Below, piece after piece: positions 1,346-62,090 of a stretch of DNA of 64,000 nt; within the stretch, counting starts at the first letter, position 1; every line of letters starts with the position of its first letter. The notes below the pieces were generated by a model. That model did not search any database, had not been told where the DNA came from, and was given only the letters and a program-made list of their open reading frames with translations. This DNA comes from a virus. The stretch is from positions 1-64,000 of the IMG/VR virus record IMGVR_UViG_3300036944_001066; one strand, given 5' to 3'. The translations under genes were made by a program, and so were the position numbers.

Positions 1346-1549
1346 CTACCAATCCTCGACCGGATGGGCCGGCGTGCTCGCAACCGGCTCCGCAGGCACA
1401 ACTGCGCCCGGTTTCTGAATGCGCACAACCTGCGTTTTTGGCACGTCAATTGCCAGCCGAACACGCCGGCCTGACTTCTCATGCATCGTAATTTCCCCGA
1501 TGCCTTCGAGAACCAAAATTTGTCCCATTTTCATTTCGAGGATCAGCAT
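1346..1549 (-). CDS. csrA-like: CsrA/RsmA-like RNA-binding regulator
   Basis: 67 residues; the first about 46 align one-to-one with CsrA: MLIL start, MGQ for VGE, and VRLAIDVPK for VRIGVNAPK. CsrA dimers bind GGA motifs in mRNA leaders and block or aid translation. At CsrA positions 6-7 (RR) this protein has MK, and at the key Arg44 it has Ile with Arg moved to 43, so RNA specificity may differ. A Pro/Ala-rich tail ends in VEDW. It is the last gene of the packaging operon, 6 bp after the scaffold-like gene. The late leaders of this phage carry AGGA-loop hairpins that are plausible targets (inference). Confidence 0.88.
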   Translation of the reverse strand: MLILEMKMGQILVLEGIGEITMHEKSGRRVRLAIDVPKTQVVRIQKPGAVVPAEPVASTPAHPVEDW

Positions 1550-24686: not shown

Positions 24687-26008
24687 CCGACACCACACCC
24701 ATGCCAGAAGACATCACGATGGCAGCGCACGATGCAGCATTGGCGTTCGTAATGCTGACAGATCGGGAAGAGAGCTTAAGCACTCTGCACGTGGCAGAGC
24801 AGGAGAAGCTTTTCCACATCATCGCCAGTGCGCTTAAGGCGGAGAGGGAGAAATCCTCGACCATAGCGGCGAATGAAGCCGAACGCCGGATCGACAATGA
24901 AGAAGGCTATGACGGCGTCAGGGCTTTCGATGCCGCGGTTACCGCTCGCCGGATACAGGCGGCCATTTCAGGCACACCAAACGCGCACTTAAGCGATGCT
25001 GTGCGCGAACGGATAACCGACGACAAGACCCATCCCCGCTTCATCGCGGGTTACGATGCCGGCCTCGCCGACGGCAAGCGCGAGCGCCATGGTACCGATG
25101 CCCGCCTGCCGCAGGACGTCATCAACCTCGTCATCGCCGCCCGCGAGGCATTCGACACCGGTGACCTTCCAATGATCGAGGAACGCGCACTCGACGAGGC
25201 GCTGGAAGCTTTCTCCGAGCGCGTGCCTTACGAGAACCAGCCCGACGACGAGGAACCAGCCGTCGCCCTCACCGGCCTCCGGTACCGCCCCAACGAGTTC
25301 GACGACTGGGGCCAGATCCGCAACGCCGACGGCAGCATGTTCGCCAGCGTGCGGCGGCCGGCGTCGGAGGAAGAGCTCGCCGAGCATCGCCGCGCCGGCA
25401 CCGATCCTTATGAGGATCTGGCCCGGCGGCTGATGTCCACCTTCGACGCGCCCGCGCCACCGGCATCGCCTGACCCAATCTCTGTGGCAAAGGCCGCGCT
25501 GCAGGCCTGCATAGGCTCGATGGAGGGCGAGTGCGCTGGCAGTCATAAGATCGCGCTGCACCAGGCGGACAAGGCATGCCAGATGATCGCGGGCCTTGCC
25601 CGGCCTGCATCCCCTGACCCCATCGGCTGGTGGTACGAGGACAAGCACGGCTGCATCCTCATGTCGCTCGACATGGCGCTCGGCCGCCGGCACGAAGCCG
25701 AAAACGGCGCCCAACTCAACCTGCTTTACGGCAAGCCGCTCCCGGGCACCGCCCCCACACCCTCAACACATGTGGTGGTGTCAACCACGGCTGTTGACCA
25801 CAACGGCGAGCACATCGAAGCACTCGTTCCAGCCAGAGAAATCCTGATCGCTGACGAGATCGAACGCGTCGTGCAATCCGTCAACGAATGGGACGATCGC
25901 ACATCGCCCGACGACTATCCCGACCATCTGCTGATCACGTCGGAGGAACTGACCGACATCTTGTGCAACTTCGCCGAAACCCTCGCTACCTCGGAGGCAT
26001 CACGATGA
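24683..26008 (+). CDS. Mosaic hypothetical early protein, 441 aa
   Basis: Patchwork of short modules. A helical N-terminus; a segment ending PRFIAGYDAGLADGK; two ASPDPI units (one before VAKAALQACIGSMEGECAG, one before GWWYEDKHG); the linker APTPSTHV, also present in the gene at 30236-30955; and a C-terminal DDRTSPDDYPDHLLITSEEL module shared with the gene just upstream. Such Lego-like composition is typical of rapidly shuffled phage early proteins. No enzymatic motif. Confidence 0.65.
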   Translation: MTDTTPMPEDITMAAHDAALAFVMLTDREESLSTLHVAEQEKLFHIIASALKAEREKSSTIAANEAERRIDNEEGYDGVRAFDAAVTARRIQAAISGTPNAHLSDAVRERITDDKTHPRFIAGYDAGLADGKRERHGTDARLPQDVINLVIAAREAFDTGDLPMIEERALDEALEAFSERVPYENQPDDEEPAVALTGLRYRPNEFDDWGQIRNADGSMFASVRRPASEEELAEHRRAGTDPYEDLARRLMSTFDAPAPPASPDPISVAKAALQACIGSMEGECAGSHKIALHQADKACQMIAGLARPASPDPIGWWYEDKHGCILMSLDMALGRRHEAENGAQLNLLYGKPLPGTAPTPSTHVVVSTTAVDHNGEHIEALVPAREILIADEIERVVQSVNEWDDRTSPDDYPDHLLITSEELTDILCNFAETLATSEASR

Positions 26009-30239: not shown

Positions 30240-30955
30240 TCCGACACCCCCTCCCTCGTTGCGGGTGGTGGGGTGCGCAGTACCAGTACCGGCACTTCGC
30301 GATTTGGGCCGCGTGACGCGATCCTGGCAGCGATCACCATGGCCTCCTCAAGAGTTTTGGCGCGCTCAATGGTCACGCCCTCAGCCATGAGCCGGCCATT
30401 GATGTATCGGTCAAATTCGTAGGTAAGGGCGCGGATCGCGACGGCCAATTTCTCGATAGCCACGGTCTCTGCGCCGACCTGTTTCGCTCGGGCATAGTCG
30501 CGGACTTCGCGCAAGCCCTGGACTACGTGCTTGGCCTCGGCGGCGTGCTTGTCAGCCAGCGCGGCCGCAAGCTCGATACCGTAGGCTACGGCCTTGGCCT
30601 TCTCGTCACGCATCCGCTTCATGCTGTAGCGGGGGCCGTCGTCACCGATCACATGTGTTGAGGGTGTGGGGGCGCCAGCCTTCAGACGCTCCACCTCGGC
30701 CTTCAGCCTCGCAACTTCCTTCTCGGCCGCCAGCGCCCGCCTGAGCTGACTTGGCTCCATCGTGGAGTTTTCGATGACGTTGGCCTTCCAGGAAGAGAAC
30801 GTCGCCCAACCTTCGTAAGTAGGGGATTTTCCGGCGGCCTCGGCTCTCGCTCGCTCAAAGTCCTGCAAGATCCGCGCAAGCGGGATAATCGGCTGTCCTG
30901 CGGCCATGCCTTCAAGCATCACCATCTCTTCATACGTGAGATCTGAGAGTTTCAT
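30236..30955 (-). CDS. Modular coiled-coil early protein, 239 aa
   Basis: ATG 30955. Residues about 1-40 (LSDLTYEEMVMLEGMAAGQPI); a helical coiled coil (ALAAEKEVARLKAEVERLKAG); then the linker APTPSTHV, shared with the 441-residue protein at 24683-26008 and with a 24-bp DNA identity; then a helical domain and a C-terminal strand (NREVPVLVLRTPPP). Family not recognised. Confidence 0.65.
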   Translation of the reverse strand: MKLSDLTYEEMVMLEGMAAGQPIIPLARILQDFERARAEAAGKSPTYEGWATFSSWKANVIENSTMEPSQLRRALAAEKEVARLKAEVERLKAGAPTPSTHVIGDDGPRYSMKRMRDEKAKAVAYGIELAAALADKHAAEAKHVVQGLREVRDYARAKQVGAETVAIEKLAVAIRALTYEFDRYINGRLMAEGVTIERAKTLEEAMVIAARIASRGPNREVPVLVLRTPPPATREGVSE

Positions 30956-32578: not shown

Positions 32579-33381
32579 TCCTCCGCCCCTTTTTGGACGA
32601 CAAGCTGAGGGCCGCTGCTGGCAAGCGCGTCATATGCCAAGGCGCGCTCGGCGGCTGCGCGTTTGCGCACGTTGATGACGATCAGCACCAGGACGAGGAT
32701 TGCCGCAACACCGCCCATCACCGCGATGGCCGTGTAATAGTCAAAGTCGCTCACAGTCGTCGGCGACGAGGCGGCGACCGCAGAACCGGAGCCGCTACCA
32801 GCAGCGCCGGCGGCAGTAATCTTTTCGGTTCCTGCGGCATTGTTCTTCGCATGGGTCGCGTCAACGGCATGCGCCGCGGCTTCCGTGCGGATCACGGTCG
32901 GCGTGGCGCCCATGGCGGCCATAGCCATTGCCACGCCGCGCACCTCGATGTCAGCAACGCGACGGCCCCAGCCTTTACCGAACGTTTTCCAGATCTTCAG
33001 GGATTGCATGAAGGACAGGCGGGCGCGGCAGATCTTGCGCACCGTCTCGGAATGATCGTTGGAGCCCATAGCGGCCCAAAGCCATTTCTTGCCGCGGGAA
33101 ACGCCCGAATTGACCGACGCATCATAAACGGCAAGATCGACGCCCGGGAACAGGTTCGGCGCACCGCATGCTTCCCAAAATTCGCTGCGATAAAAGGTGA
33201 GCGCTTGCGCTTTGGTAACATTGCGCACCGGGGAAAGCTTCATCCCCATTTTGCGCTGATACTCGTGCCAGCGCACTTCGGTAATGCCGTACATCGTCTT
33301 GCCACCGGGGTCGGCGGGATGGTCGCTCCATCCGCCCTCCCATTTGGAGGTGATCGGGTGGCACACTGGAAAACGGTCCAT
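32575..33381 (-). CDS. Endolysin, GH108 type, with C-terminal membrane anchor
   Basis: 268 residues from ATG 33381. The GH108 (ZliS/secretion-activating) muramidase signature has catalytic E15 in SKWEGGWSDHPADPGG, then TMYGIT and FWEACGAPNLFPGVDLAVYDASVNSG. An Ala/Gly/Ser linker leads to a membrane span at about 213-234 (AVMGGVAAILVLVLIVINV) and a cytoplasmic-looking Arg-rich tail. Transcribed from the late leader at 33407-33436. Confidence 0.9.
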   Translation of the reverse strand: MDRFPVCHPITSKWEGGWSDHPADPGGKTMYGITEVRWHEYQRKMGMKLSPVRNVTKAQALTFYRSEFWEACGAPNLFPGVDLAVYDASVNSGVSRGKKWLWAAMGSNDHSETVRKICRARLSFMQSLKIWKTFGKGWGRRVADIEVRGVAMAMAAMGATPTVIRTEAAAHAVDATHAKNNAAGTEKITAAGAAGSGSGSAVAASSPTTVSDFDYYTAIAVMGGVAAILVLVLIVINVRKRAAAERALAYDALASSGPQLVVQKGAEE

Positions 33382-33436
33382 GACGGCGGGGCTCCTTGGT
33401 GAACCCGCACGTCCTGCGCAGCAATGTTTTTCATTA
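33382..33436 (-). promoter_or_regulatory. Late promoter and switch-like leader, copy 1 (endolysin)
   Basis: Minus strand: -35-like TTGTTG, 17-bp spacer, -10-like TAATGA (33431-33436). Then hairpin 1, GCGC-AGGAC-GTGC (33407-33419), starts about 11 nt further on. Alternative hairpin 2 pairs GCGGG with CCCGC across the Shine-Dalgarno AAGGAG and re-uses the last two bases of hairpin 1. Start codon at 33381. Confidence 0.75.
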
Positions 33437-33450
33437 CCACGCACCGTGTA

Positions 33451-33528
33451 TTGCAACAATCCCGCAAGAAAGGTAATAAGGAAAGAGTAGGCGCAGGACG
33501 TGCTAATTTTCCATCAGGAGTTAGCACC
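33451..33528 (+). promoter_or_regulatory. Late promoter and switch-like leader, copy 2 (major capsid)
   Basis: TTGCAA (33451-33456), 17 bp, TAATAA (33474-33479). Hairpin 1, GCGC-AGGAC-GTGC, is at 33491-33503. Hairpin 2 pairs GTGCTAA (33500-33506) with TTAGCAC (33521-33527), a perfect 7-bp stem holding the Shine-Dalgarno AGGAG (33516-33520) in its loop and abutting ATG 33529. GTGC 33500-33503 is shared by both hairpins, so only one can form. Back to back with copy 1. Confidence 0.8.
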
Positions 33529-34626
33529 ATGCCCACAATTGTACCTTTCGGCGATCCGAAGGCACAGAAGAAGTGGTCCGGCCAGTTGATGGTCGCCACC
33601 ATCCAGCAGTCCTACTGGGATCGCCGCTTCATCGGCGAATCCGATGAGAACTGCATCCAGAAGCTCACCGACCTCGAAAGCGCCGCCGGCGACAAGATCA
33701 CTTACGATCTGTCCGTCCAGTTGCGCAACAAGCCGACCTACGGCGACAACCGCATGGACGGTTCGGAAGAGGCGCTGAAGTTTTTCACCGACGAAGTGAA
33801 CATCGACCAGATGCGTAAGCCGGTTTCGGCTGGCGGCAAGATGTCGCAGAAGCGCACCGCGCACAATCTGCGCATGATCGGCAAGAAGCGCCTCGCCGAT
33901 TACTGGTCTGCCTTCATGGACCAGATGCTGTTCATCTACCTGTCGGGTGCGCGCGGCATCAACCAGAACTTCATCGAAGACACGGCATGGACCGGCCACG
34001 CGGCCAACCCCATCCAGGCGCCGTCGAGCGACCACATCCTTTACGGTGGCGATGCCACCAGCAAGGCGACGATCGACAGCTCGGACAAGATGTCCCGCAA
34101 CCTGGTTGAACGTGCCGCCGTCGCCGCGACCATGATGGCCGCCACCGACCCCCGCAACGCTCGCCTCCTGCCGCTGAACATCAACGGCGAGAAGCATTAC
34201 GTCTGCATTATGTCGACCTTCCAGGAACATGACCTGCGCACGTCCGATACCGCCGGCTGGCTGGAAATCCAGAAAGCGGCGGCGGCGGCCGAAGGCAAGT
34301 CCAATCCGATCTTCAAGGGCGGGCTGGGCATGATCAACAACGTAGTGCTCCACAGCCATGAAGACGCGATCCGCTTCAGCGACTACGGCGCAAGCTCCAA
34401 CGCTCCGGCGGCCCGCGCGCTGTTCCTCGGCCGTCAGGCTGGCGTCATCGCATTCGGCGCCGTTGGCGGTTTCCGCTTCCAGTGGACCGAAGAAACCAAG
34501 GACCATGGCAACGAGCACGTCATTGCCGGCGGTCTGATGGTCGGCGCCAAGAAGGCCCGGTTCAACAACCGTGACTTCGGCGTCATGGCCCTCGACACCT
34601 ACGCCAAGGATCCGAACGCGGCTTAA
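33529..34626 (+). CDS. Major capsid protein, N4 gp56-like
   Basis: 365 residues from ATG 33529. Family blocks: GDPKAQKKWSGQLMVATIQQSYWDRRF, GDKITYDLSVQLRNKPTYGDNRMDGSEE, QMRKPVSAGGKMSQKRTAHNLR and the C-terminal GRQAGVIAFGA. It forms the HK97-fold capsid shell. Highly expressed late gene with the strongest leader of the set. It lies 29 kb from portal and terminase and on the other strand. Confidence 0.92.
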   Translation: MPTIVPFGDPKAQKKWSGQLMVATIQQSYWDRRFIGESDENCIQKLTDLESAAGDKITYDLSVQLRNKPTYGDNRMDGSEEALKFFTDEVNIDQMRKPVSAGGKMSQKRTAHNLRMIGKKRLADYWSAFMDQMLFIYLSGARGINQNFIEDTAWTGHAANPIQAPSSDHILYGGDATSKATIDSSDKMSRNLVERAAVAATMMAATDPRNARLLPLNINGEKHYVCIMSTFQEHDLRTSDTAGWLEIQKAAAAAEGKSNPIFKGGLGMINNVVLHSHEDAIRFSDYGASSNAPAARALFLGRQAGVIAFGAVGGFRFQWTEETKDHGNEHVIAGGLMVGAKKARFNNRDFGVMALDTYAKDPNAA

Positions 34627-36919: not shown

Positions 36920-37656
36920 TGGCCGTCAAGCTCGCGAACAACGCCACCAGCACACTGGCCGCACCGATAACCGACACGGGTACCGTTGTTACCGTCCAGA
37001 TCGGCGATGCCGCCAAGTTCCCGGCATTGGGCGCTGGCGAGTGGTTCCCGCTTTCTGTGGTGGATAGCTCGCTCAATCGCGAAATCATGATGGTCACGGC
37101 AATCAGTGGCGCGAGCCTCACTGTTACCCGCGCGCAAGAGGGCACGATTGCTCTCAGTTTCGCGGCCGGTTCCAAATGCGAATTGCGGGCGACGGCGGTG
37201 GTCTTTACGTCGCTGACAACGATGATCTCCGACCTTCTCACGGACCTGCAAGCGCTCGAAACATCAACGACCGAAGCCCTTGCCGGCAAAGCCGCCAGTT
37301 CGCACACGCATCCGACCTCGCAAGTCACTGGATTGGATGCAGCCCTTGCCGGCAAAGCCGCCAGTTCGCACACGCATCCGACCTCGCAAGTCACTGGATT
37401 GGATGCAGCCCTAGCAAGTAAGCAGGACGCTGCGGCTTTGCCTTGGGCAATCGGTTCCATTGGAACTGGCGGCCCCGGGACATATGCGTTTGCAGCCTAT
37501 ACCGGCAGCGATGCGCCTCCTGGCTTGTATGTCGGCGGTGGTAGCCTTCACTGGGGCGACCGTAACGGCTACGGAGGAGCGATTGGATACGGGACGTGGG
37601 CTTGCGCCGGGCAAGCCGCGATCGGGCAAACTACGCTATGGAAAAGGGTTTCGTGA
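36919..37656 (+). CDS. Tail fibre-like protein with tandem repeats, 245 aa
   Basis: The N-terminal beta domain (TGTVVTVQIGDAAKFPALGAGEWFPL), a helix, then two identical 22-residue repeats of the ALAGKAASSHTHPTSQVTGL type common in phage fibres, then a Gly-rich C-terminal knob. Start ATG overlaps the connector stop. Trimeric fibre or appendage is likely. Confidence 0.75.
   Translation: MAVKLANNATSTLAAPITDTGTVVTVQIGDAAKFPALGAGEWFPLSVVDSSLNREIMMVTAISGASLTVTRAQEGTIALSFAAGSKCELRATAVVFTSLTTMISDLLTDLQALETSTTEALAGKAASSHTHPTSQVTGLDAALAGKAASSHTHPTSQVTGLDAALASKQDAAALPWAIGSIGTGGPGTYAFAAYTGSDAPPGLYVGGGSLHWGDRNGYGGAIGYGTWACAGQAAIGQTTLWKRVS
37275..37406 (+). repeat. 66-bp exact tandem repeat (two copies)
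   Basis: Two identical 66-bp units plus the first bases of a third. They encode the 22-residue fibre repeat. Exact DNA identity means the duplication is recent or maintained, and copy number could change by slippage. Confidence 0.9.
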
Positions 37657-39905: not shown

Positions 39906-40354
39906 AGTCCGTCATTTACCAGCCGGTAGACACTATGATCGAATGGGCAGTGAAGCGATGCGGCGGCTTCCCTTTCCGGGATGATGCAACCGCGATCGGA
40001 ACAACGGACGCCGGCCAGTTGGCCGGCGTTGTCGTGTTTGACAATTTCTCACCCGGTGGGTGTTACATCAGCGTGGCGTCCGATGGGTCGCGGCGCTGGC
40101 TGAATCGTGAATTTTTGATCCGTGCAAGCGCCTACCCATTCATCCAGTTGAACCAACGCCGCATCACTGGCCTGATTTCCGCGCATAACAGCGACAGCAT
40201 CGCGTTCTGCAAATCCTGCGGGTTCCAATTTGAAGGCACGATGCGGCAGGGCGGCGTCTTTGGCGAAGATCTCCTGCTTTTCGGCTTGCTCAAAGAGGAA
40301 TGCCGATGGCTTCCGAATAGGATGGCTGGAAAGCATAACCCGGCTGGGCTATAG
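39902..40354 (+). CDS. GNAT-like N-acetyltransferase
   Basis: 150 residues, TTG start overlapping the previous stop (TTGA). The GNAT fold is suggested by GQLAGVVVFDNF (strand 4), ASAYPFIQLNQRRITGLISAHNSDSIAFCKSCGFQFEGTMR (acetyl-CoA region and the typical 'GFxxEG' block). Phage structural operons often carry such genes; they may modify a virion or host protein. Confidence 0.72.
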   Translation: MKSVIYQPVDTMIEWAVKRCGGFPFRDDATAIGTTDAGQLAGVVVFDNFSPGGCYISVASDGSRRWLNREFLIRASAYPFIQLNQRRITGLISAHNSDSIAFCKSCGFQFEGTMRQGGVFGEDLLLFGLLKEECRWLPNRMAGKHNPAGL

Positions 40355-40404
40355 TGCCATCGTCGCGCAGGACGTGCGGCCTCTCCTTTTCATGAGGCCA
40401 CACA
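40350..40404 (+). promoter_or_regulatory. Late promoter and switch-like leader, copy 3
   Basis: -10-like TATAGT (40350-40355). Hairpin 1, GCGC-AGGAC-GTGC, is at 40365-40377 and extends to 5 bp with flanking C and G. Hairpin 2 pairs GGCCTC (40378-40383) with GAGGCC (40394-40399), burying the Shine-Dalgarno GAGG. GTG (40374-40376) can pair further with CAC (40401-40403) across one C-A mismatch, competing with hairpin 1. ATG 40405 follows. Confidence 0.75.
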
Positions 40405-41661
40405 ATGGGCAAATTCAGTTCCTCTGCACCCGCAGCAGATCCCGCGATCGGCGAAGCCGCTCTTAAAGAGGCGCAGACTGGCGAGGCGTGGCTTGCCTTT
40501 GCGAAAGATTCCTTTGCTGTTTCGCAGGAGCGTCAGAAAGAACTAGACGCCCTCACGACAAAAGTGACGGAGCAACAGCTTGGCCTCGCGACCGATCAGG
40601 CAACATGGTCAAAAGAGGATCGCGCGCGCTACAACAGCGTCTATAAGCCGATTGAGGATCAATACATCGCCGAGGCAACCAATTATGCTTCGGACGAAAA
40701 GCAGGCAGAGGCGGCGGCTGGCGCCCGCGCAGACGTGCAAACTGCCGCGGCCAATGCACGATCAGCCACCGAACGCCAGGCGGCATCGATGGGCATTGAT
40801 CCCACGTCCGGCCGGTTTGCCGGCGTGCAGGCCACCACCGACATGAACGCCACACTGGCCGAGGCTGGCGCGGCGAATGGCGCGCGTGAGGCAGTGCGTG
40901 ACAAAGGGTTGGCGCTGAAGGCCGACGTGGCGAACATGGGCCGTGGTTATGCGTCCAGCGCGGGCACAGCTGCCGGAGGCAGCGTCGGCGCCAGCGCAAC
41001 AGCACTTTCTGGCGCCCAGTCCACCAATAGTCAGTCGATGGCGGCAAACAACATCATGGGTGCCGGCTTCCAAGGGGCAATGCAAGGCTATTCCGGGCAG
41101 GCGGCGACCTTGAACCAGCAGTTCGGCATCCAGTCCAACAACTGGCAGGCACAGCAGAGCGCGAACGCCCAGGGCGCCGCCGGCATCGGAACTTTTTTGG
41201 GTGGCCTGTTTGCCAGCCCGATCTTCAAGTCCGACGAAAACCTGAAAGAGGACATTCAGGATATCCCCGAAGGCGAGGGCATCAACGCCATGCGCAAGAT
41301 GCCCGTGAGCGAGTGGAGCTACAAAGAGGGCGTCGAGGATGGCGGCCGGCATGTCGGCACAATGGCGCAGGATTTCCAGCGCGCCACCGGCAAGGGCGAT
41401 GGCCAGTCGATCCCTGTCGTCGATGCCATCGGCATCACCATGAAGGCGGTGCAGGATCTCGACCAGAAGGTGGAAAAGCTGGCCGGCATGATCGGCCTTG
41501 GTGACCACGAGAAGGCGGAAACCGCCGAGGAAGAGGCGGTTGAGGACGATGAAATGTCCGAAGAGGAGGATGCCGCCGCACCGCCGCCCATGCCAGCCAA
41601 GCGCCGCGCCAAGCGCAACACGCCGATGATCGGCATCAACTTCGAAAAGGAAGCCGCGTAA
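40405..41661 (+). CDS. Internal virion protein with S74-like chaperone domain, 418 aa
   Basis: Residues 1-270 are Ala/Gly/Gln-rich helical sequence of the sort seen in ejected internal proteins. From about 276, SDENLKEDIQDIP ... NAMRKMPVSEWSYKEG ... HVGTMAQDFQ ... VVDAIGITMKAVQDLDQKVEKL matches the intramolecular chaperone (peptidase S74) domain normally ending tail spikes. An acidic run and a Lys/Arg tail follow. It is unusual for that domain not to be preceded by a fibre. Under late leader copy 3. Confidence 0.72.
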   Translation: MGKFSSSAPAADPAIGEAALKEAQTGEAWLAFAKDSFAVSQERQKELDALTTKVTEQQLGLATDQATWSKEDRARYNSVYKPIEDQYIAEATNYASDEKQAEAAAGARADVQTAAANARSATERQAASMGIDPTSGRFAGVQATTDMNATLAEAGAANGAREAVRDKGLALKADVANMGRGYASSAGTAAGGSVGASATALSGAQSTNSQSMAANNIMGAGFQGAMQGYSGQAATLNQQFGIQSNNWQAQQSANAQGAAGIGTFLGGLFASPIFKSDENLKEDIQDIPEGEGINAMRKMPVSEWSYKEGVEDGGRHVGTMAQDFQRATGKGDGQSIPVVDAIGITMKAVQDLDQKVEKLAGMIGLGDHEKAETAEEEAVEDDEMSEEEDAAAPPPMPAKRRAKRNTPMIGINFEKEAA

Positions 41662-55200: not shown

Positions 55201-57904
55201 TGCGGTCCACCGGCGGCACGCGCCGCGCATCTTCTGCCGCCACCTGCTTTGGCGTCTGCTTGTTGACCTTCAGGCTTTCGAGCGGAACCTGGTACGACTT
55301 GCCGTCATCGGCGCGCACGACGGCGTCCGTGCCGTCCCACGTTTCAACGGTACCGGCAAACCGGCCGGCCTTCTCGTCGTTGACGATGATGCGCTGGCCC
55401 GGCGGTGGTGCGCTGGGGAAGCGCATGTTGGCTTCCATGTCCTGCGATGCGGGCGCCAGTCCCTCATTGGTCACCGTTGCAGAAACCGGTGCTGCCGGCT
55501 CCAACGCCGGATCGGTCGAAAACTCGGGCAGGCTATCGCCAATCGGGATTGGCCCGGTTTCGGGCGGGTTATCGGCCGCGATCTTCTCCGGCGAATCCGC
55601 AATCTTCGACAGGTTGGCGAGCGGGATCTGGTAGACCTCGCCAGTGCCGCTATCGACGATGACAGCTTCATCGCCTTCGTAACTGTCCACGCGACCCATG
55701 AAAGGCTCAATGCCATCCGCATCGACGCGCACCGTGGCGCCGACTTCCGGTGCGCCATCTGGCATCGCTGCGGCGGCCGGCATTGCCACCGGCACCGCTG
55801 CTGCGGCGCGTGCCGCCTGCTGCTCTGCCGCATGCTGGGTGGCTCTGCCAATCGGCCCGCTTGCCGTTGTCTGCACCGTGGGTGCGGCTGGTGCGCCTGC
55901 ATCTGCCGGCATCGCCTCGCCTTCGGCTCTCGGCCTGGCTGCACCACCGACGCCGCCGAGCGTGCCGCCCATGGCTCCACCACCGGCAAGGCCAGACGCA
56001 ACCGCCTCGCCGACGCCTTCCGTAATCTGCTGATCCGGGTTCACCCGCTGCACGCCGGCATTCTCGGCCATCGTCTGCAGCGCGCTCTGCGGCGCCTCTT
56101 CAAGCACGCCCTCGCCGATCATGCCGCGCACCGTACCTGCCAGCACACGCTTTGCCACGTTGCCGCCGACACCCTCGGCGAGGATCTTTGCCAGCGCACG
56201 ATCGCCCATGCCGCCGAACATGCCGGTGGCAACGCCTGCCATGAGGAACGACTGCGTTGCTGCGTCCTCGGTCACTGCCTTGATTGCCTCTTCCTGGCTC
56301 ATGCCGCCATCGACGAGTGCCTTGACGGCATCGCTTTCGGCCAGTTGGTCCGGCGCAATCTGCCCGATCCGGTCGCGCACGTTCTTCGCAGCGTCCGCAC
56401 CGCCCAGGATGCCTTCCGAGATCGCGCCGGCAACCGTGGCCGTGCGTGCGGCGACTGCTGCGGCCTGCACCTGCGATCCGGTTGCCGCCATGGTGCGCAG
56501 ATACGCGCCACGCGCCAGAATGCCGCCGGGGAGCATCGTCACCAGTGTGCTTGGCGCACTTTCGCCCACCACGCGCAGATAGCTGCGAGGATCGCGCCAC
56601 GCCGGGCCAAACCGCTTGTTGTCGGCGTCCCACCAGTTTTTGGCGTCCGCATCCTGCTGTGCCTGCGTCACCGACGCATTGGCCTGCGTCTGGCTCTGCG
56701 ACAGGCGCTGATCCAGCGTCTTGCCCATCGCCCAACGGTCAATATCGTCGGATGCCTGCAGGAACGCCTCCCCGCCTGGCAGTTTGCGGAACACGGTGTC
56801 AGCGAGCGAAGACAGGGACTGCCCAAGGCCGATGGTGCCGGACTTGAGGATGCGTCCGGTATCGCCGAACACGCCACCGGAACGGTTCTCCTCTTCCCAC
56901 TTCTGCTGCCAGTCGCCCAACTGCGATTCCGCGATGGTCTCGTAACGGCCCGGATCTTTCGCCTCGAGCGCTTCGACGCGCTGCGCGGCCTCCGCATTGT
57001 GCTGCTCATTGAGCGCGTTGATGCGATTGGTTTCCGACTGCGTTGCCGCTGCCTCTGCGGCGGCCTCGATCTGCGCGCGCCGCTGCTTGGCCATGTCGTC
57101 GAACGGATTTCCGCCGGCCATCAGCCCCATGGGGTCCGAAGCCTTGAAATTCTCGTCGACCACGATCGAGTTACCAGACGCGCTGGCCGAGACCGGGCCA
57201 AGTGGCGCACGTTCAACGCGGCCCAAGGCGCGATTGAACTTTTCGCCATAGGCGCCAATGCTGGTTCCCAAAGAATCCTTGCGCTCTGTCTTGCCAACGC
57301 CCCCAGCTCCGCCAAACCATGCCTGCGCAGCGCCCTCCGGTCCAAAGCGTGCCACGTATTTTCCGAACTGATGGTCGAAAACGGCATCTTGAATATCGGG
57401 ATTTGCAAGAAACTCTTCTGCGGTTACCTCTCGCCCAATTGCCGCCTTGGACCACGGGCCAACATTGGCTTCCATGACCTGGTACCGGCCGAGAGCATAC
57501 CCCATAGAACGATGTTTCGGCCCGATTGCAGAGTAGTCTCCGCTCCCTTTGCTTTCGATCGATGCGATAGCCTCACGATAGGCTGGCATTTCAGGGAACT
57601 GCGGCGTGAACACCTCTTTGCGCGCTGGCTTGGGCGCATATGTGCCATCGCGCAGCACGGCTGCGAACGGATCAGCGCCCTCATCGCCGAGACCGGGCAT
57701 TTCTGCAATCCGGCTGGTTTTTTCCGCGCGCGGTGCCTTGGTCACATACGGGTCGCGATAGCTGCTTTCGGACTTGGCTGCAGGTGCATCCGCCTTCTCC
57801 GCCGGCGTTGCCTCAACCGGCTTCTCGGCCGCTGCGCTCGGCTTCCCGCCATAGATGTTGAGCGGGTCATTCCAGTCGCCGTCGAGGCCGAGGATAACAG
57901 GCAT
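43247..57904 (-). CDS. Giant polyvalent PLxRFG protein, 4,885 aa
   Basis: Start ATG 57904 (MPVILGLDGDWN) after late leader copy 4. Domains by approximate residue: lytic transglycosylase 105-230 (catalytic E117 in IESKGSGDYSAIG); hydrophobic Ala/Gly stretch 440-660; two SH3-like repeats 712-767 and 827-884; InPase-like 1385-1525 (HYGYIKGTVGRDKDHIDVFV); N6-adenine methyltransferase 2018-2285 (EPSVGAGNF, NPPF); SNF2 helicase 2782-3422 (TVGAGKT, VDEFHEF, ATGTPLSN, QRDGRIIRQG); JAMM-like 3685-3808 (HNHP...SGAD); coiled coil 4000-4180; PLGRFG at 4193; hydrophobic helices 4375-4412 and 4592-4625. Such proteins are packaged and injected, opening the wall and defending incoming DNA. No frameshift seen. 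Confidence 0.93.
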   Translation of the reverse strand: MPVILGLDGDWNDPLNIYGGKPSAAAEKPVEATPAEKADAPAAKSESSYRDPYVTKAPRAEKTSRIAEMPGLGDEGADPFAAVLRDGTYAPKPARKEVFTPQFPEMPAYREAIASIESKGSGDYSAIGPKHRSMGYALGRYQVMEANVGPWSKAAIGREVTAEEFLANPDIQDAVFDHQFGKYVARFGPEGAAQAWFGGAGGVGKTERKDSLGTSIGAYGEKFNRALGRVERAPLGPVSASASGNSIVVDENFKASDPMGLMAGGNPFDDMAKQRRAQIEAAAEAAATQSETNRINALNEQHNAEAAQRVEALEAKDPGRYETIAESQLGDWQQKWEEENRSGGVFGDTGRILKSGTIGLGQSLSSLADTVFRKLPGGEAFLQASDDIDRWAMGKTLDQRLSQSQTQANASVTQAQQDADAKNWWDADNKRFGPAWRDPRSYLRVVGESAPSTLVTMLPGGILARGAYLRTMAATGSQVQAAAVAARTATVAGAISEGILGGADAAKNVRDRIGQIAPDQLAESDAVKALVDGGMSQEEAIKAVTEDAATQSFLMAGVATGMFGGMGDRALAKILAEGVGGNVAKRVLAGTVRGMIGEGVLEEAPQSALQTMAENAGVQRVNPDQQITEGVGEAVASGLAGGGAMGGTLGGVGGAARPRAEGEAMPADAGAPAAPTVQTTASGPIGRATQHAAEQQAARAAAAVPVAMPAAAAMPDGAPEVGATVRVDADGIEPFMGRVDSYEGDEAVIVDSGTGEVYQIPLANLSKIADSPEKIAADNPPETGPIPIGDSLPEFSTDPALEPAAPVSATVTNEGLAPASQDMEANMRFPSAPPPGQRIIVNDEKAGRFAGTVETWDGTDAVVRADDGKSYQVPLESLKVNKQTPKQVAAEDARRVPPVDRTEEKAAVAGPTMRKVMGKTLVMPDENHARLFDLGLNRAISKASGSSQLDLGSVDVPEHKALADAFKVTPQALGSMADDYRYRAQRAAKTAGSDLPQRIAPVNERRLKQWQLERSKADADTTNTVGNEMWWDAELTAPERKRILDEAGVKRSENAMWGTFTPAIRAKIDAVRNGGAVQEDSASGGEQTFTTAKGSRYTLHADGTTTRVKAERADPGHEGDKGLKPRSARTIFLDTNASVLSSAGLSGVGEKGSRVVIRGNTASLVTWNAKENRWGIAPGSRDIPFTDVAKIGSYPLELWNEVNDIPGYTAFARMHAGNSITDIQTAEAAKPAQNTKQKLTAIYKEMGERMSPIEYVRRIVEHPRREEAAIIEPDGKLYVLKPTSNPSGDHAEFLGRLFEADLIPVENHGYVKLSSYGDQIGADAGGPISPAAQATLQAVRNAAVREGINYLREAGDVALTVDQAAKEAATSPENERPEPTQAQKEAGNYKLGHARIGGLDISIENPAGSDRKGVDKGGKQWSVRMQSHYGYIKGTVGRDKDHIDVFVKPGTETLTDAAPVFVVDQVGPDGKWDEHKVMLGFNAQAEAEQGYLDNYSDGWKLGPVTETTLGEFKQWLETGNTAKRFSERSAGVPDQDKARMRQVTDDEVKAVWATPAFRKFRAEIKPMDPHRESSVAYQMIAGWLDQKEGKPPTKPAPHGGTTDPIEPYLMGYIGARDGAGLKVRASQADDVYQSAMQIYEAETARPVAAAKPSVEKTAPAPASVAKPSAAPRPKPLTQAQRVDRYENYFQPGRDVDAYGGGKDRVISFNRNGTEWTVTVAEVKKDGSLDRERTHSSIPTDRELSAWEKTNLVPEKQAAVKAAPAVSENKIFTESAADKARALLRSKLNQLNSGIDPEIMQAGITLAGYHIEKGARTFAAYASAMIGDLGEVARPYLKSWYMGVKYDPRATGFDGMSSAAEVDSADVNAIGKETADEPAELDQPGAPALEGIPADAVPGAEGRRAVGERPAAGGRDDVSGDGRAGAERVQSGRGVADDAGGVSVPATGRNAAAEPDVDQRGDDGRNAGRPTVDGRRVAPQSSLDALKGVESAATPAQNLPADYAITDGDQIGQGGSKAKFAGNVAAIKVLRTLADENRPATREEQAVLAKWVGWGGLRAAFFRDDGSANKGWEKQAAELKALLTPEEYRAAESSTRNAHYTSPEIVDAVWNVAQQLGFKGGQVLEPSVGAGNFIGMMPAGAKSGSHVTGVELDHITGGIAKNLYPATNIQAPMGFETLVVPNDYFDLVIGNPPFGSERLYDKNRRHLNKLSIHNFFFAKAVEALRPGGVLAMVVTNRFLDGNNAAARTMIANQADLVGAIRLPNNAFLKNAGTEVTTDIVILRKRTAEDGPGDRAWVDVADYRGKDGKTVPLNRYFIANPGMMLGDFGAYGTMYGPDEPALVAREGQDLPAELRAAIATLPKDLMPEPGVEMRPTETVVDGVEAASVGSMFLSSDGTVHERIADSLGTPQSKPVAFASDKAKERVEGMVRVRDGFARLRRAQISDTATDKQIENLRERLNKAYDAFVGKNGPINHDANKRLFRDDPTWPQISALENNYDKGISAEVAKKTGEKARPPKADKAPIFTKRTQQPYQRPTSAASAKDALAQVLNDRGRVDLDEMSRLYGKPADAIVDELGSLLYQTPAGTYETADAYLSGNVKQKLAEAERAAVSDPTFRRNVAALRDVQPEDIEAIDIDVKAGSPWVPPKHVGDFIEHITGSKGARAVYSRGNGIWVLDVPRSTPASDAMWATGRASVSQIVNAAINGKSAQVYTKDAEGKDVIDQAATEAANEKVSRVKEEWNRWLWQDDARRVELARLYNDTFNTDVIRVYDGAHLSLPGKVGDDIVTLRPHQKSFVWRTLQSSVALADHTVGAGKTFALIASIMEKRRTGQAKKPVLTVPNHLVGQWAADFQKLYPGAKVLAPTKRDFEKQNRKRLFARVATGDWDVVIVAHSQFGLIGVTPETEAAFIQQQIGDLEQSITDMRRETGEKSRNVAQLAKQRQNLESKIKGLLDAGRKDDGLYFDDLGVDALYVDEFHEFKNLPFVTGMQRVAGLGNPTGSKKATDMFIKIQNVLDRTGGNIVVATGTPLSNTMAEMYTVQRYLDKKRLGNLGLSHFDAWARVFGEAVTDWELSPSGQYKLNTRFAKFVNIPELMKMYLGFADVISNDDIKAQLAAQGKTLPLPKVMGGKPNNITVERSQDQAAFIGEGRMDANGEMQFPEGSLVYRAEHLPKKAEKGADNMLKVMSDARKAALDMRLIDPAYADNPDSKVSRAADEMKRIYDKWSDKRGAQLVFIDLSTPKKAKAKQESELRDLMRKAEEGDEAAQEKLDAMSPDEFLALTSKFSVYDDLRQKLIDRGVPADEIAFIHDANTEIQKEELFGKVRSGRTRFLFGSTAKMGAGTNVQNRLVALHHLDAPWRPSDLEQRDGRIIRQGNELYDEDPNGFEVEILRYATKNTLDARQWQGIEAKARFIGQVRKGDVKTRQIEDIAGEAANAAEMKAAASGNPLILEEMETRRKLRTLEGQASEHNRNQHRIRDKIRQAREEIEAINARLPGERTDAANAEKLADQPFKAIVDGETFEKPKEFGAALLARMRKGIVDGMGGAETVGKYGDFTIRMDHMYEAKFDVEIKGARSYHLTIEDVGQQDPTGLAMSITNQVRRLTKLPASDEARAADVQEQIPLIAKQIGPWPNAAELEETATKHRALLDALKPKKPGTAPVAAPADADVLPAKADKRPDPVVKSTQDLRSLPVPPRNAEESLMQWAFRVVSEPGLKSGNEHLVAIDDDGAVVEYGTAGRPSMTGMSNKLASAMSNPDRQIVIFHNHPRNSPLSGADIAFSVMPGLHATWAIGAGGRNTRYEPTDRMKAWRAKFSDDTGTQIYRLADMTSALAKISQFMTEFLQRQVNNGNTVASVADEAHGYAIQEVAQRAGIIAYFTNQSYDFASVPGMDAKINEAAKRLEGAVFNDTTAKTADAGIYRSAKPVRHIAEMEGMAVAGRGDVGANPKSGGLAEAGARDYSPEKRRTVNRERITRELSGRLTDLTPAVLKTIPLNYFTELARPNMVAVGEYLRVKRLMDAFRGQKHADADEIAGQWLKFTRLGFASRDKAKAQALSDLMHDSTIFGVDPSSTEDEEKAKGHYAALRQRYLALPPAGRELYNKVRNAYSAQAAELDEILLDNVRKAQEIAREQAERRYKKSLEQIRDAGLAMDLRRKAEEDAKSAYQAETTKSSWAAKARMTKLRIAFESSRVPAPYFPLGRFGRYFVTVRDVDGSVLTFSKFEKAADRDRFASEVGREYPGGTVEKGVMEEGADLRNSMDPRMVAEIETILGGAGVDSEVMDMIWQRYLETMPDLSTRKRFIHRKGTAGFNRDALRVFSSHMFHAAHQMAKVKYGLELQELVQQARDQAREADDPTRGMTLSNELAKRHDWVMNPTGGKAAQVLTSAAFVWFLAASPASAALNMTQTVMMGMPILAGRFGGMKMAGQALMKASMDSVKGRGSITNANLSREEKDAIQAFYDSGLIDRTQSHELAGVGDTGVNYSPLRARVMGVISWAFHRAEVWNREVTALAAYRMARGSGQDHLAAIDTAHDLTWKTHFDYSNSSRPAIMQNDIAKVALVFRNYNVNMLYRMFRDIHQSLKGETPAARKEARYQLAGVVGMQALFAGVSGVAGFNLAMMVAGLIFGDEDDDPLGFEQAFRTDMVNILGPELGGVVLNGVPGHYLGIDLTTRIGMPDLWFRSPNRELQGKDEYQYWLSQSLGATVGLGENLYNGFNLVMDGEVARGIETAAPKVVRDLMKSYRYASEGLTSFDGTTVMTADQIGVHGIVAQALGFTPASVAETWDRNTALKNAETRIMRERQRLVTKWAMSVIEGEDAEIDKATKAIDKWNDVPLHQAVPIKPDTLKRSVKTRMKNSANRDEQGTLIRNELLGERLRGALSERIYD
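45976..46185 (-). CDS. Nested small gene inside the giant gene, 69 aa (second frame)
   Basis: ATG 46185 (MTQQQKLLMPGFIDPPSPF), preceded by AAGGGG nine bases upstream. The product is protein-like: FIDPPSPFDTLQKWKEWLSQVEAMSARI, then a helical basic tail. The giant protein's own frame here is a low-complexity linker (VAGRGDVGANPKSGGLAEAGA) between the JAMM-like domain and the coiled-coil region. Start may instead be the ATG at 46161. Function unknown. Confidence 0.6.
   Translation of the reverse strand: MTQQQKLLMPGFIDPPSPFDTLQKWKEWLSQVEAMSARIPNRADLLKQARETIRLKSAERSIGNGLPVN
51976..52281 (-). CDS. Nested gene inside the giant gene, 101 aa (second frame)
   Basis: ATG 52281 is preceded by a textbook AAGGAG at 7-bp spacing, inside the giant gene. 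The product MNLQNWISQARQHWKEFQPT ... LESALQQAAEMTFRETDALEQSGFSPDEAWQMTREEYLF is a well-formed helical protein with a Pro-rich linker and short C-terminal helix. In the giant frame the same DNA encodes an Arg/Gly/Asp-rich linker just before the methyltransferase domain, which fits overprinting. I believe similar small proteins accompany polyvalent genes elsewhere but cannot check. Confidence 0.75.
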   Translation of the reverse strand: MNLQNWISQARQHWKEFQPTRYQALKDAGQLESALQQAAEMTFRETDALEQSGFSPDEAWQMTREEYLFPPPEGTQPQSPTSISAAMMDAMRAGQRSMDAE

Positions 57905-57963
57905 GGGTGTGGCTCCGGTTGAATTGGAGCCGCACGTCCTGCGCGACAAGTGCATGATTTATA
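57905..57963 (-). promoter_or_regulatory. Late promoter and switch-like leader, copy 4 (giant gene)
   Basis: Minus strand: -10-like TATAAA (57958-57963). Hairpin 1, GCGC-AGGAC-GTGC (57932-57944), is flanked by C and G for a fifth pair. Hairpin 2 pairs GGCTCC with GGAGCC (57911-57931 span), hiding the Shine-Dalgarno GGAG, and can extend through GTG/CAC past one C-A mismatch into hairpin 1. Start ATG 57904. Confidence 0.75.
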
Positions 57964-58031: not shown

Positions 58032-58346
58032 TTAAGCCGCGGCGCGAACGCGGGCTTTGTCCCCGGGCTTGACGTAGACGTCGTGGCTGTGGCTGTCATT
58101 GACCATCAGCAGCAGAGACGGAGCCGCATCCAAGTCGCCGCTGCCAACGTCGAGGTACGCATCTGCCTGGATGGTAACGCGGAAAACGGGCCGCAATCCA
58201 TCCTTGTCGGTTGCAGCCTTTGTGGTGCTGGTCCCAAGCGCCGGGGTCTCGGACCACTGCACCAGGCCGAACAACGGCTGCTTGGCGCCGAACGGTGCAT
58301 CTGCCGGCGCGAAGCCGCATGCGATATGAACATCAGGTAGAGCCAT
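58032..58346 (-). CDS. Small virion-type protein, 104 aa
   Basis: ATG 58346 (MALPDVHIACGFAPADAPFG). Beta-rich, acidic C-terminal half (QADAYLDVGSGDLDAAPSLLLMVNDSHSHDVYVKPGDK). It has its own late promoter/leader and terminator, so it is probably produced in large amounts, for example a decoration or tail appendage protein. Family not recognised. Confidence 0.7.
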   Translation of the reverse strand: MALPDVHIACGFAPADAPFGAKQPLFGLVQWSETPALGTSTTKAATDKDGLRPVFRVTIQADAYLDVGSGDLDAAPSLLLMVNDSHSHDVYVKPGDKARVRAAA

Positions 58347-58420
58347 GGGCGTGCCTTTCGGTTGATTGAGCACGTCCTGTGCAGTTGGAGCATATTATCA
58401 CGCTTGGATGTCATTTGCAC
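58347..58420 (-). promoter_or_regulatory. Late promoter and switch-like leader, copy 5
   Basis: Minus strand: GTGCAA (58415-58420), 17 bp, TAATAT (58392-58397). Hairpin 1 is GCAC-AGGAC-GTGC (58370-58382). Here the third stem base is A instead of G, turning a G-U into an A-U pair, so pairing is kept. Hairpin 2 pairs CGTGC with GCACG around GAAAGG and re-uses the hairpin 1 arm. Start ATG 58346. Confidence 0.8.
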
Positions 58421-58774: not shown

Positions 58775-59971
58775 TCAGGCAGCCATGGCTTCCAGGACCT
58801 CCAGCGTCCGATCTGCGTACCATTGGCCACCAGCAAGGCACCCTGCCGTGTTGAGATGTGCATCATCGGCCATTAAAGGATGGCCTGTCGCCGCGCCAAT
58901 AGGAATATAAACACCGCCAACGGCCTCGATAACCGGCACAAAAGCAATAAGGCGATCTGAGGTAAACTGGTCGACTGCGGCCTTAACGGCGGCTTCGTTG
59001 GCCGCGAGACTGAGCGTCCCGGTTTGCCCCGCTTGCGCCGGCTGCGTGCCAAAGACGATAATCGGGATGTCGGAATATCGGCTACGCAACAGGTTGATTG
59101 TCGCGGCGCATCTCGACGTGATGTTGCTGGCGCTGCCAAACTTGTCGTTGATAGACCCTGACAGGAATATGGGTCCTGTAGGAGCACCATTCAACGCCTC
59201 GTCACCGTTGGCAACGCGCTGGTCAAAACGGTAAAGCGTAGTCGTAGTTTGATCCCAGCCGGTGCCACCAACGCCGGAGTTCATATGAGCTTTAAACCCA
59301 AGAATGTCTGCCATGACGGCAAACACGCTGTCTCCAAGCGCTGTGGCTGACGCGCCATAGCCCCAACTGTCGGAAATGATGACCGACCGGAATTCCGCAG
59401 GCGGCAGTTTCGTGACCCGCTCTGTCGCACCGACATAAACACCAACGAAAGATGAGCCCGCTTGACCTTCGAGAATGATCTCACGGCTTTTCCGGCCACC
59501 TACAGAGGCAAAATCAAGAGAGATATATTGCGTCCCGCTACTGGCGGTGGTCACTGTTCCAGTAGCGTCAACATACTGACCGTCAACGATGAAGCGGTAA
59601 GGGGTGGTTGTTCCATTGACACGCCACGTTACCTTGGCCGCGTCTGCGCGAATTCCAATCCGGAACCAATTCTGAACGCCCCCTGCGCTATCGCCAATGT
59701 TGCCGCCTGTCGTCCATTCCACGGCCGACCGAAATCCGGCCTTTGTCCCGTAGAATGTACCTCCGGTCTCTCTGAATAGCCCTGCCGGGTAGGTGCTACG
59801 CAGATAAGCCGTCGATTGGCCGGACGGCAGACTGCCGCCATCCGCCGTCACGGTTGGCGGTGCAGACATAACGCCTCTGCTGCGGATATTATCTCTACGC
59901 GCCCTCCGTGCGCAGTCCAGAATGCGGTTGACTTTAGCAAAGCGTGTGGATCGAAGTTCAATGTCAGCCAT
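58775..59971 (-). CDS. SGNH/GDSL-hydrolase tail protein, copy 2 (complete)
   Basis: 398 residues. The N-terminal about 195 residues are an attachment/beta region, followed by an SGNH hydrolase. Block I SDSWGYGAS (nucleophile Ser), block II NSGVGGTGW, block III SGSINDKF (Asn) and block V DDAHLN (Asp-His) are all present. A depolymerase or esterase acting on exopolysaccharide or O-antigen acyl groups is likely. ATG coupled to the upstream small gene (TGATG). Its 5' half is about 95% identical to 1-631. Confidence 0.88.
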   Translation of the reverse strand: MADIELRSTRFAKVNRILDCARRARRDNIRSRGVMSAPPTVTADGGSLPSGQSTAYLRSTYPAGLFRETGGTFYGTKAGFRSAVEWTTGGNIGDSAGGVQNWFRIGIRADAAKVTWRVNGTTTPYRFIVDGQYVDATGTVTTASSGTQYISLDFASVGGRKSREIILEGQAGSSFVGVYVGATERVTKLPPAEFRSVIISDSWGYGASATALGDSVFAVMADILGFKAHMNSGVGGTGWDQTTTTLYRFDQRVANGDEALNGAPTGPIFLSGSINDKFGSASNITSRCAATINLLRSRYSDIPIIVFGTQPAQAGQTGTLSLAANEAAVKAAVDQFTSDRLIAFVPVIEAVGGVYIPIGAATGHPLMADDAHLNTAGCLAGGQWYADRTLEVLEAMAA

Positions 59972-60100
59972 CAGGCGACCCTCTCAAGCTCGATAGTGCG
60001 GTTGCCATTTTCGGTGACGCGATTTCCGTCTTCGGTGACAAATGCCCACCGAAATCCAGATGGAGCAGGGTACGGAGGCACAGGCCCACCCTTTCCGGGG
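59341..60100. repeat. Long direct repeat, copy 2 (partner 1-760)
   Basis: Same orientation as copy 1, so recombination between the two would excise or duplicate a 59.3-kb block. Divergence is concentrated in the SGNH beta region (59461-59670) and falls to a handful of mismatches elsewhere. Confidence 0.9.
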
Positions 60101-60156
60101 GTGGTGGGCGTCGCCAGCAGATCGCGGAACAGCGGTCTAAACAGCGGCCTAAGCAC
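59971..60156 (-). CDS. Small tail-cassette protein, 61 aa (copy 2)
   Basis: GTG 60156 overlaps the end of the 87-residue gene by 8 bp. The C-terminal 38 residues match the 65-residue protein at 631-828 almost exactly, whereas the N-terminus (LRPLFRPLFRDLLATPTTPGK) is different. This is the same mosaic border seen in the DNA repeat. Confidence 0.6.
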   Translation of the reverse strand: MLRPLFRPLFRDLLATPTTPGKGGPVPPYPAPSGFRWAFVTEDGNRVTENGNRTIELERVA

Positions 60157-60745: not shown

Positions 60746-61152
60746 TTGCGCGACCTGATGGCAGATGCCACCGCCTGCACGCCCATGCCCGCAGCCCCCG
60801 TGTAAAAAATATTGCCGAACACGACGTCTGCGTATTCTTTCAGCTGCGGCGGCAATGCGGCCACATCGGGTAGCGCGCCGTTGCACAGACTGTCCAGCAT
60901 GCCCCAACCAAACCAACCGGCAGTCGGGACTGCGGCCACAAGCCACGGCACCCAAAACGCCTTGTGCTGCATGCCCTCGCGAACGACGCCAGCGCTTGCC
61001 GAGGATGCCGCCATTTGCGCTTCGATTGCCTTGATAGAGACGTCGGCAGCAATGCGGTCGGCGTCATTGGCGGCCTTAAGCTTTAGCTCGTAGGCCTTAG
61101 TGAGGGATCCGGCCAACCCGCCGGACACCCAATTCAGTAGCCATTTGATCAC
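60742..61152 (-). CDS. 3TM holin-like protein of lysis cassette 2, 136 aa
   Basis: GTG start overlapping the endolysin stop (GTGA). Amphipathic N-terminus (WLLNWVSGGLAGSLTKAYELKLKA), charged helix, then hydrophobic segments (FWVPWLVAAVPTAGWFGWGML; NIFYTGAAGMGVQAVA). Same general plan as the holin at 31719-32237. Confidence 0.72.
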   Translation of the reverse strand: MIKWLLNWVSGGLAGSLTKAYELKLKAANDADRIAADVSIKAIEAQMAASSASAGVVREGMQHKAFWVPWLVAAVPTAGWFGWGMLDSLCNGALPDVAALPPQLKEYADVVFGNIFYTGAAGMGVQAVASAIRSRK

Positions 61153-62090
61153 ACCGCGACCTCCTTGCCGCGCCACGTATTCCAGCGGCGGATAAGCACA
61201 TCGCGGTTGCGATAGGCGACATAGGCCAGCACGATGACGACAGCACCGCTGGCAATCCAAGCCCACGGAAGGCCGGCGGTCCACGCGGTTGCGGCAACAC
61301 CGACGCCACTTCCTGCGCCCTTGGTGATGGCTTCGCGGGCCGCCGTAGCGTCGCGCCGCAGTTGTGCCAGCGTGGCCGGGCCGATGACGCCGTCCGCCAC
61401 AAGGTGTGGGTGCGCCTTCTGGTAGGCGATGACAGCTGCCTTGGTCTGTTCGCCCATCCAACCGTCAATGGCGCCGGGATTCAGGCCCGCCGTGGTCAGA
61501 AGTTCTTGCGCCTCACGGACGACCGGATCCTGCAGCGCTGGCTTCTTGTCGCGCGCAACGCGCGGCTCGCCTTCGGCAGCAGCCACGGCAATGCCGCCGT
61601 AATTCCCGTTAAGGAACAGTTCCGCCTCTTCCTTGCGCCGTCGTACCAGGCCGGCCAGCTTCTTGCCGCCAGCCGTGTTGTAATGGCTGGAGAGATAGGC
61701 TGCGGCCTCCTTCAGCGAACCAGCGCGCCAAAGCTTTGCCCACTGCCATCCCATCGCGCCGGCCCCAAGATTATAGGCGACGCTGGTGGCGGCATCCATC
61801 TGATGTTGCGTGCGATCGGCGGGCGACTGTGCGACAACGGCGGGCTCGAATTCGGCGGCAAGCACTTCCGACAGGACGGCATCAATCTGCGCATCTGTCA
61901 GCTTTGTCTTGCCGGGCACAAGTTCCGTGATGCCGAGCCGTGCCAAGGCTTCGCGTACGGCCTTGCTGCGCATCGTGAAGCCAACGCCTATGGTTCGTAT
62001 CTTGACGGGGTCGAGATAACAGGTGCGCACCGTGCCCTCATGGGAACGCAAAAACGCGCGCCCACGCGGTGACGTGGTCGTGATTGGCAT
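61149..62090 (-). CDS. Endolysin, GH24 lysozyme with PG-binding domain and C-terminal anchor
   Basis: 313 residues. Residues 8-165 are a T4-type lysozyme (E18 in RSHEGT, D27 in CYLDPVK, then IGVGFT; NLGAGAMGWQW). Residues about 186-250 are a peptidoglycan-binding domain (AQELLTTAGLNPGAIDGWMGEQTKAAVIAYQ). A membrane span lies at about 273-292 (WAWIASGAVVIVLAYVAY) with a basic tail. This is a second, unrelated endolysin in the same phage. Confidence 0.9.
   Translation of the reverse strand: MPITTTSPRGRAFLRSHEGTVRTCYLDPVKIRTIGVGFTMRSKAVREALARLGITELVPGKTKLTDAQIDAVLSEVLAAEFEPAVVAQSPADRTQHQMDAATSVAYNLGAGAMGWQWAKLWRAGSLKEAAAYLSSHYNTAGGKKLAGLVRRRKEEAELFLNGNYGGIAVAAAEGEPRVARDKKPALQDPVVREAQELLTTAGLNPGAIDGWMGEQTKAAVIAYQKAHPHLVADGVIGPATLAQLRRDATAAREAITKGAGSGVGVAATAWTAGLPWAWIASGAVVIVLAYVAYRNRDVLIRRWNTWRGKEVAV

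Follow-up and report, generated by a model that had tools for sequence, protein, structure and literature searches.

A predicted two-state RNA leader at late genes of DarB/DUF4043-capsid podoviruses, possibly opened by a divergent phage CsrA-like protein

A short RNA leader was found at five genes of the window analysed here, the 64,000 nucleotides that make up positions 1 to 64,000 of the IMG/VR record IMGVR_UViG_3300036944_001066 (a 64.4-kb virus contig), and it is read, with somewhat more belief than doubt, as a cis-acting translational switch of late genes that would be opened by the phage's own CsrA-like protein. The leader motif, its two helices (P1 and P2), their mutual exclusivity and the association with a csrA-like gene are strongly supported by sequence statistics, and the ligand, the direction (activation) and the timing of the switch are what we infer. 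The leader of the S74 gene (40362-40407), its promoter and its gene have the following parts:

40327..40355, plus strand: sigma70-like promoter TGGAAA-17-TATAGT inside the structural operon, with a predicted transcription start at about 40362
40350-40355, plus strand: -10-like TATAGT of the S74 leader
40365..40377, plus strand: P1 hairpin, GCGC (40365-68), loop AGGAC and GTGC (40374-77), plus the flanking pair C40364-G40378
40378-83 and 40394-99, plus strand: P2 core, GGCCTC/GAGGCC
40374..40403, plus strand: full P2, GTG and GGCCTC (40374-76, 40378-83) with GAGGCC and CAC (40394-99, 40401-03)
40405..41661, plus strand: S74-chaperone-type virion structural protein (phrog_8003), the regulated gene, ATG at 40405

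The initial annotation had described, within 40350-40405, a Shine-Dalgarno sequence (SD) buried in a GGCCTC/GAGGCC stem, and this was confirmed with the sequence as it had been given: in the computed pairing P2 sequesters the SD GAGG (40394-97), with a z value of -5.7 against shuffled spacers. The stem is not independent of the 13-nt motif upstream; the core stands as described, but P2 was found to extend through the 3' arm of P1, GTG (40374-76) pairing with CAC (40401-03) while C40377 and A40400 are mismatched, and P1 and P2 are mutually exclusive at this GTG. The internal promoter also claimed for the structural operon was supported. TGGAAA-17-TATAGT at 40327-40355 is expected 0.0 times per shuffle, its -10 shares bases with the stop codon that ends the preceding gene, and 35 of 81 leaders have a -10 resembling TATAAT (5/6 match or better) 8-18 nt upstream of the motif, compared with 5.5 in shuffles. 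An attenuator, formed by P1 followed by CTCTCCTTTT, was considered and rejected, since the relatives have no T-tract after P1.

The core GCAGGACGTGC is present in the 64 kb as four exact copies and one copy with a single mismatch, each ending 23-27 nt 5' of a start codon, and the S74 leader, formerly counted as the third of three copies, is one of five:

33491..33531, plus strand: leader of the major capsid protein, motif at 33491, ATG at 33529, P2 GTGCTAA/TTAGCAC
33379..33419, minus strand: leader of the endolysin, motif at 33419, ATG at 33381
Motif at 40365, ATG at 40405, plus strand: leader of the S74 protein
57902..57944, minus strand: leader of the DarB-like 4885-aa protein, motif at 57944, ATG at 57904, P2 GTG.GGCTCC/GGAGCC.CAC
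58344..58382, minus strand: leader of a 104-aa ORF, motif at 58382, ATG at 58346, P1 GCAC/GTGC (G-U changed to A-U)

P2 differs from copy to copy, which bears out the earlier remark that the second stems are unrelated in sequence. The capsid and endolysin leaders are divergent (33407-33503), with motifs only about 70 nt apart and a gap common to two opposing late promoters.

The structural genes match those of Sinorhizobium phage PBC5, Agrobacterium phage Atu_ph08 and Ochrobactrum phage POI1126, which carry the same genes with the same leader arrangement and the motif GCGCATGAGTGC or GCGCATGACGTGC. Relatives of the capsid gene were also found in Rhizobium, Agrobacterium, Sinorhizobium and Shinella genomes, and a host among the Rhizobiaceae is therefore likely. 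In IMG/VR the S74 protein identified 48 loci and the capsid protein 80, and among these the leader is present at nearly all capsid genes and at the S74 genes of the closer relatives; in relatives it also precedes the gene of an internal virion protein, tail-fibre genes and a gene of portal size. A degenerate pattern had 197 matches in 38 near-complete contigs, compared with 60 for the reversed control pattern. On these sequence comparisons the leader family is widespread in podoviruses with DarB/DUF4043-type capsids, the 13-mer of the window being one version of a variable hairpin with an ANGA loop. The regular expression by which leaders were collected leaves little of the motif free to vary, and conservation inside it was not counted as evidence. 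The idea of a general phage element was discarded, as two pattern scans of IMG/VR gave, among the matches listed, credible leaders only in this phage group. A search of Rfam gave no match within the window and only chance-level matches at the leader.

Since the regular expression fixes GCGC and GTGC, P1 was evaluated only on bases outside the motif. The bases flanking the motif pair in 58 of 81 leaders (34.2 in permutations, 0/20000 as good), and the next outer pair is formed in 50 (39.9 permuted, 90/20000). RNAalifold gave the same five-pair P1 for 26 S74 leaders, the outer pair being changed on both sides in eight sequences, and departures inside the motif keep the pairing as well (GCAC/GTGC, GCGT/GCGC, ACGC/GTGT and GCGC/GCGC).

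P2 was examined in 75 non-redundant leaders (less than 85% similar to each other) by folding the 3' arm of P1 (P1b) with the spacer and the ATG. The mean z value of the folding energy was -2.66, with 84% of leaders below -1, and only -1.08 when P1b was left out, which places the 3' arm of the motif in the P2 helix. In the usual extension of P2, the GTGC of this arm pairs with GCAC just 5' of the ATG. An exact Watson-Crick complement of P1b was found within 12 nt of the ATG in 37 of the 75 leaders (3.5 in shuffled sequences, maximum 11) and in 7 of 14 held-out prophage leaders (0.8 expected). Exchanging motifs or P2 arms between leaders weakened the pairing (0/5000 permutations as good), and the mean outward extension of P2 was 1.41, compared with 0.60 permuted (0/5000). 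Kinship among leaders somewhat inflates the permutation tests. These results support the earlier view that different bases build the same SD-burying structure. Changes in P1b are matched by the partner arm, as GTGT/ACAC (S74 leader of locus L003, capsid leader of L127) or GCGC/GCGC (S74 leaders of L031 and L032), and P2 often runs on through the P1 loop (ATGAC-GTGC/GCAC-GTCAT, ATGA-GTGC/GCAC-TCAT, AGGA-GTGC/GCAC-TCCT, AGGAC-GTGC/GCAC-GTCC), with the start codon itself paired in many such leaders. Leaders that keep the motif and lose the second stem, named at the outset as evidence against selection for structure, were looked for; few lack a good stem, e.g., L115, the S74 leader of L030 and the DarB leaders of L022 and L025, and selection for structure is not refuted by them. 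The consensus fold of a plain MAFFT alignment of S74 leaders contained P1 only and no P2 because MAFFT misaligns the variable P2 arms, and the swap and shuffle comparisons were therefore used for P2. As P1 and the full P2 both need GTGC, they cannot coexist; the motif, judged by its pairing potential, is the 5' arm of an extended P2, a relation that the initial annotation had missed, as it had the variability of the P1 hairpin and the csrA-like gene that accompanies the leader. Two mutually exclusive helices, one burying the SD as in SD-sequestering switches, are strongly supported by these statistics and by modelled folding.

In the proposed mechanism, each late operon of the phage group would be headed by a leader with its own promoter, so that the 5' end of the RNA would lie a few bases before the motif. 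The default state would be OFF: GCGCANGA(N)GTGC would form the 5' side of a long hairpin, and the SD would lie in its 3' side together with the nucleotides immediately ahead of the AUG and often the AUG itself. GTGC would pair with GCAC or, over the longer stretch found in many leaders, CATGA(C)GTGC with GCAC(G)TCATG. In the ON state, GCGC and GTGC would form the short P1 and display the ANGA(N) loop, removing the base of P2 and letting the ribosome site open more easily. Binding of the divergent CsrA-like protein to the loop would hold P1, and the capsid, lysis, S74 and DarB-type genes would be activated together. The proposed ligand is encoded in the window:

1346..1549, minus strand: gene of a divergent CsrA-like protein (67 aa), the last one following TerS-TerL-portal-phrog_8246; candidate ligand of P1

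Against PF02599 this protein scored E = 1.3e-4 and 22.3 bits, below the 27-bit cut-off, which was passed by the CsrA-like proteins of six relatives, and a profile of the phage CsrA-like proteins (A4) matched CsrA/RsmE structures, best RsmE 2jpp (E = 1.4e-8). The AlphaFold monomer model has five strands (2-6, 11-14, 18-21, 30-34 and 42-45) at low confidence (pLDDT 65), and a Foldseek search of this low-confidence model against the PDB gave no CsrA match. Of L4 and R44, the residues critical for RNA binding in CsrA, L4 is kept; read by position, Arg is found at 43 and Ile, not Arg, at 44. An R44-like Arg is present in some relatives, such as PEp14 and JC1. Part of the canonical RNA-binding signature is missing from the phage CsrA-like proteins. 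In a canonical CsrA site (RUACARGGAUGU; PMC7652899), GGA is required and sits in an ANGGAN loop. P1 resembles the canonical CsrA/RsmA hairpin in its approximately four pairs and its purine-rich loop between C and GU, and the five AGGAC loops of the window contain GGA, but in a loop of 5 nt rather than 6 nt. Most loops of the relatives, in contrast, are AUGA or AAGA, of 4-5 nt and without GGA; GGA is present in 22 of 81 non-redundant P1 loops, and the general loop is ANGA and not the ANGGAN of a CsrA site. It may be conjectured that the loss of the GGA rule and the changed RNA-binding residues would fit a co-evolved change of specificity.

A csrA-like gene was detected, with PF02599 or the phage profile, in 37 of the 38 near-complete contigs. 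The remaining one, L044, has the leader and no detected csrA-like gene; an ORF just upstream of its capsid gene (503-793) might encode an extremely divergent CsrA-like protein. Among 15 isolates, the leader was found in 9/9 with the divergent gene and in 0/6 without it; four capsid relatives without the gene had no match to the leader pattern, and PTXU04, whose CsrA is of canonical type, has no leader motif in its genome. The lone match of Rhizobium phage RHph_Y1_10 lies inside a long ORF and was not counted as a leader, and even when it is counted the Fisher p value of the association is 0.002. Shared descent explains part of this association. Phage F116 has both gene and leader and its nearest capsid relatives here, Vibrio and Aeromonas phages, have neither, although the F116 branch is long and its exact placement unsure. 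Pseudomonas phage F116 (L420) has two CsrA genes, one canonical (p24) and one divergent (p47), and three exact copies of GCGCAGGAGTGC, two of them leader-like, before p48 and p53. In seven beta- and gammaproteobacterial isolates, csrA-like is the gene immediately before the capsid gene, and the leader lies in the gap that separates the two. An apparent motif just before the csrA-like gene of the window belongs to the end of the preceding gene's coding sequence and has no conserved equivalent in L004; it was dismissed as chance.

The association, together with a P1 that resembles a CsrA hairpin minus one G, makes the CsrA-like protein, as we infer, the leading candidate ligand. Alternatively, the switch could be real but P1 recognised by a different RNA-binding protein, of phage or host, by an sRNA or by a ribosomal factor. 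This is unlikely, if the strongest of the alternatives: the ANGA loop departs from the canonical site and one contig has the leader and no detected csrA-like gene, yet the leader tracks that gene, the only one compared, across isolates, including the F116 contrast, and the missing G leaves P1 close to a CsrA site.

The direction of the switch was evaluated from opening costs, which are values of a thermodynamic folding model and not observations. In free folding the OFF structure lies on average 8 kcal/mol below P1. Opening the ribosome site costs 12.8 kcal/mol in the free leader and 5.2 kcal/mol with P1 held, the cost being lower in 72 of 75 leaders, compared with 6.4 and 5.5, respectively, for shuffled spacers. 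In the five leaders of the window the cost is 9.8-13.1 before and 4.3-7.6 after P1 is held. Among them the S74 leader responds least (10.8 to 7.1 only; modelled SD exposure barely altered, from 0.00 to 0.02) because the 6-bp GGCCTC/GAGGCC core survives P1. These values run opposite to what would be needed by a CsrA-like protein that held P1, bound GGA in some SDs as well, and repressed late translation in lysogeny or early infection. Such a repressor is improbable, even though CsrA proteins most often act by repression and one dimer can span two sites (PMC7652899, PMC7492729), and GGA is present in the SDs ahead of the capsid, endolysin and DarB genes; the SDs of the S74 and 104-aa ORF leaders lack it, and knockdown of the csrA homologue of the E. 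coli phage PTXU04, itself without the leader, reduces plaque size (PMC11879866).

A 5'-terminal hairpin can stabilise mRNA, and the -10 sits 8-18 nt upstream of a motif whose sequence is conserved beyond the needs of its pairing, as would be expected if the motif were mainly a promoter element acting as DNA or nascent RNA (operator, antitermination or 5'-end stabiliser) while P2 slowed translation constitutively. This reading is given an equally low probability, since a DNA site does not predict that the pairing of motif and start region beats swaps, with matched changes in P1b and P2, and the combination of terminator-like P1 and T-tract seen in the window was absent from the leaders of relatives. 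SD-burying RNA thermometers are known in rhizobia and P2 alone sequesters the SD, but a protein-free thermometer or passive hairpin that only sets a low translation rate is very improbable, as it leaves the conserved motif, the P1 covariation and the csrA-like association unexplained.

The closest known counterpart of the proposed CsrA-opened switch is the ymdA leader of E. coli, in which CsrA activates by destabilising an SD-sequestering 5' hairpin (PMC7492729), an opening by a CsrA-family protein that was demonstrated there and is proposed here. While ymdA, one gene of the host, has two CsrA sites, the phage leaders form a repeated family in which the alternative hairpin P1 shares an arm with the sequestering helix and has an ANGA loop. 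The csrA genes of Lessievirus/Bcep22-like phages and F116 (PMC7366521, PMC9144972) belong to the same gene family; csrA is termed a moron gene in the JC1 paper, some hosts are reported to have no chromosomal csrA (PMC7366521), and the passages covered mention csrA without a phage RNA target, whereas the present proposal makes the late-gene leaders of these phages its targets. PTXU04 likewise has a phage csrA and encodes a polyvalent protein (PMC11879866), but its CsrA is of canonical type (TRR, HR) and its genome lacks the leader. The motif sequences were not found in the literature covered, the 2011 Bcep22/BcepIL02 paper, where an earlier description is possible, lying outside it. The chances seem evenly balanced that this is an undescribed RNA family, namely a two-state leader at late operons across a large group of podoviruses, which a dedicated, divergent CsrA of the phage, specific for ANGA rather than ANGGAN, would open and which would serve as a late-gene master switch independent of host Csr. 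The family offers a concrete, multi-site and testable set of targets inside the phage's own genome, the switch would do at the level of translation what late-gene transcription switches do in other phages, and the leader variants are a natural set for studying a change of RNA specificity in a CsrA-type protein.

Other features of the window were also recorded. Two copies of a 761-bp repeat, 95% identical, open the record (1-761) and lie close to its end (59341-60101); a chimeric assembly, or a circular genome that has a variant end, could account for them. The second copy is followed by another endolysin-like gene (61149-62090) and by a tail-fibre-like gene (62305-63597). A perfect 66-nt tandem duplication is present in the tail-fibre gene region (37275-37406), and a perfect 25-nt inverted repeat has its arms, 4.9 kb apart, at 25750-25774 and 30650-30674.
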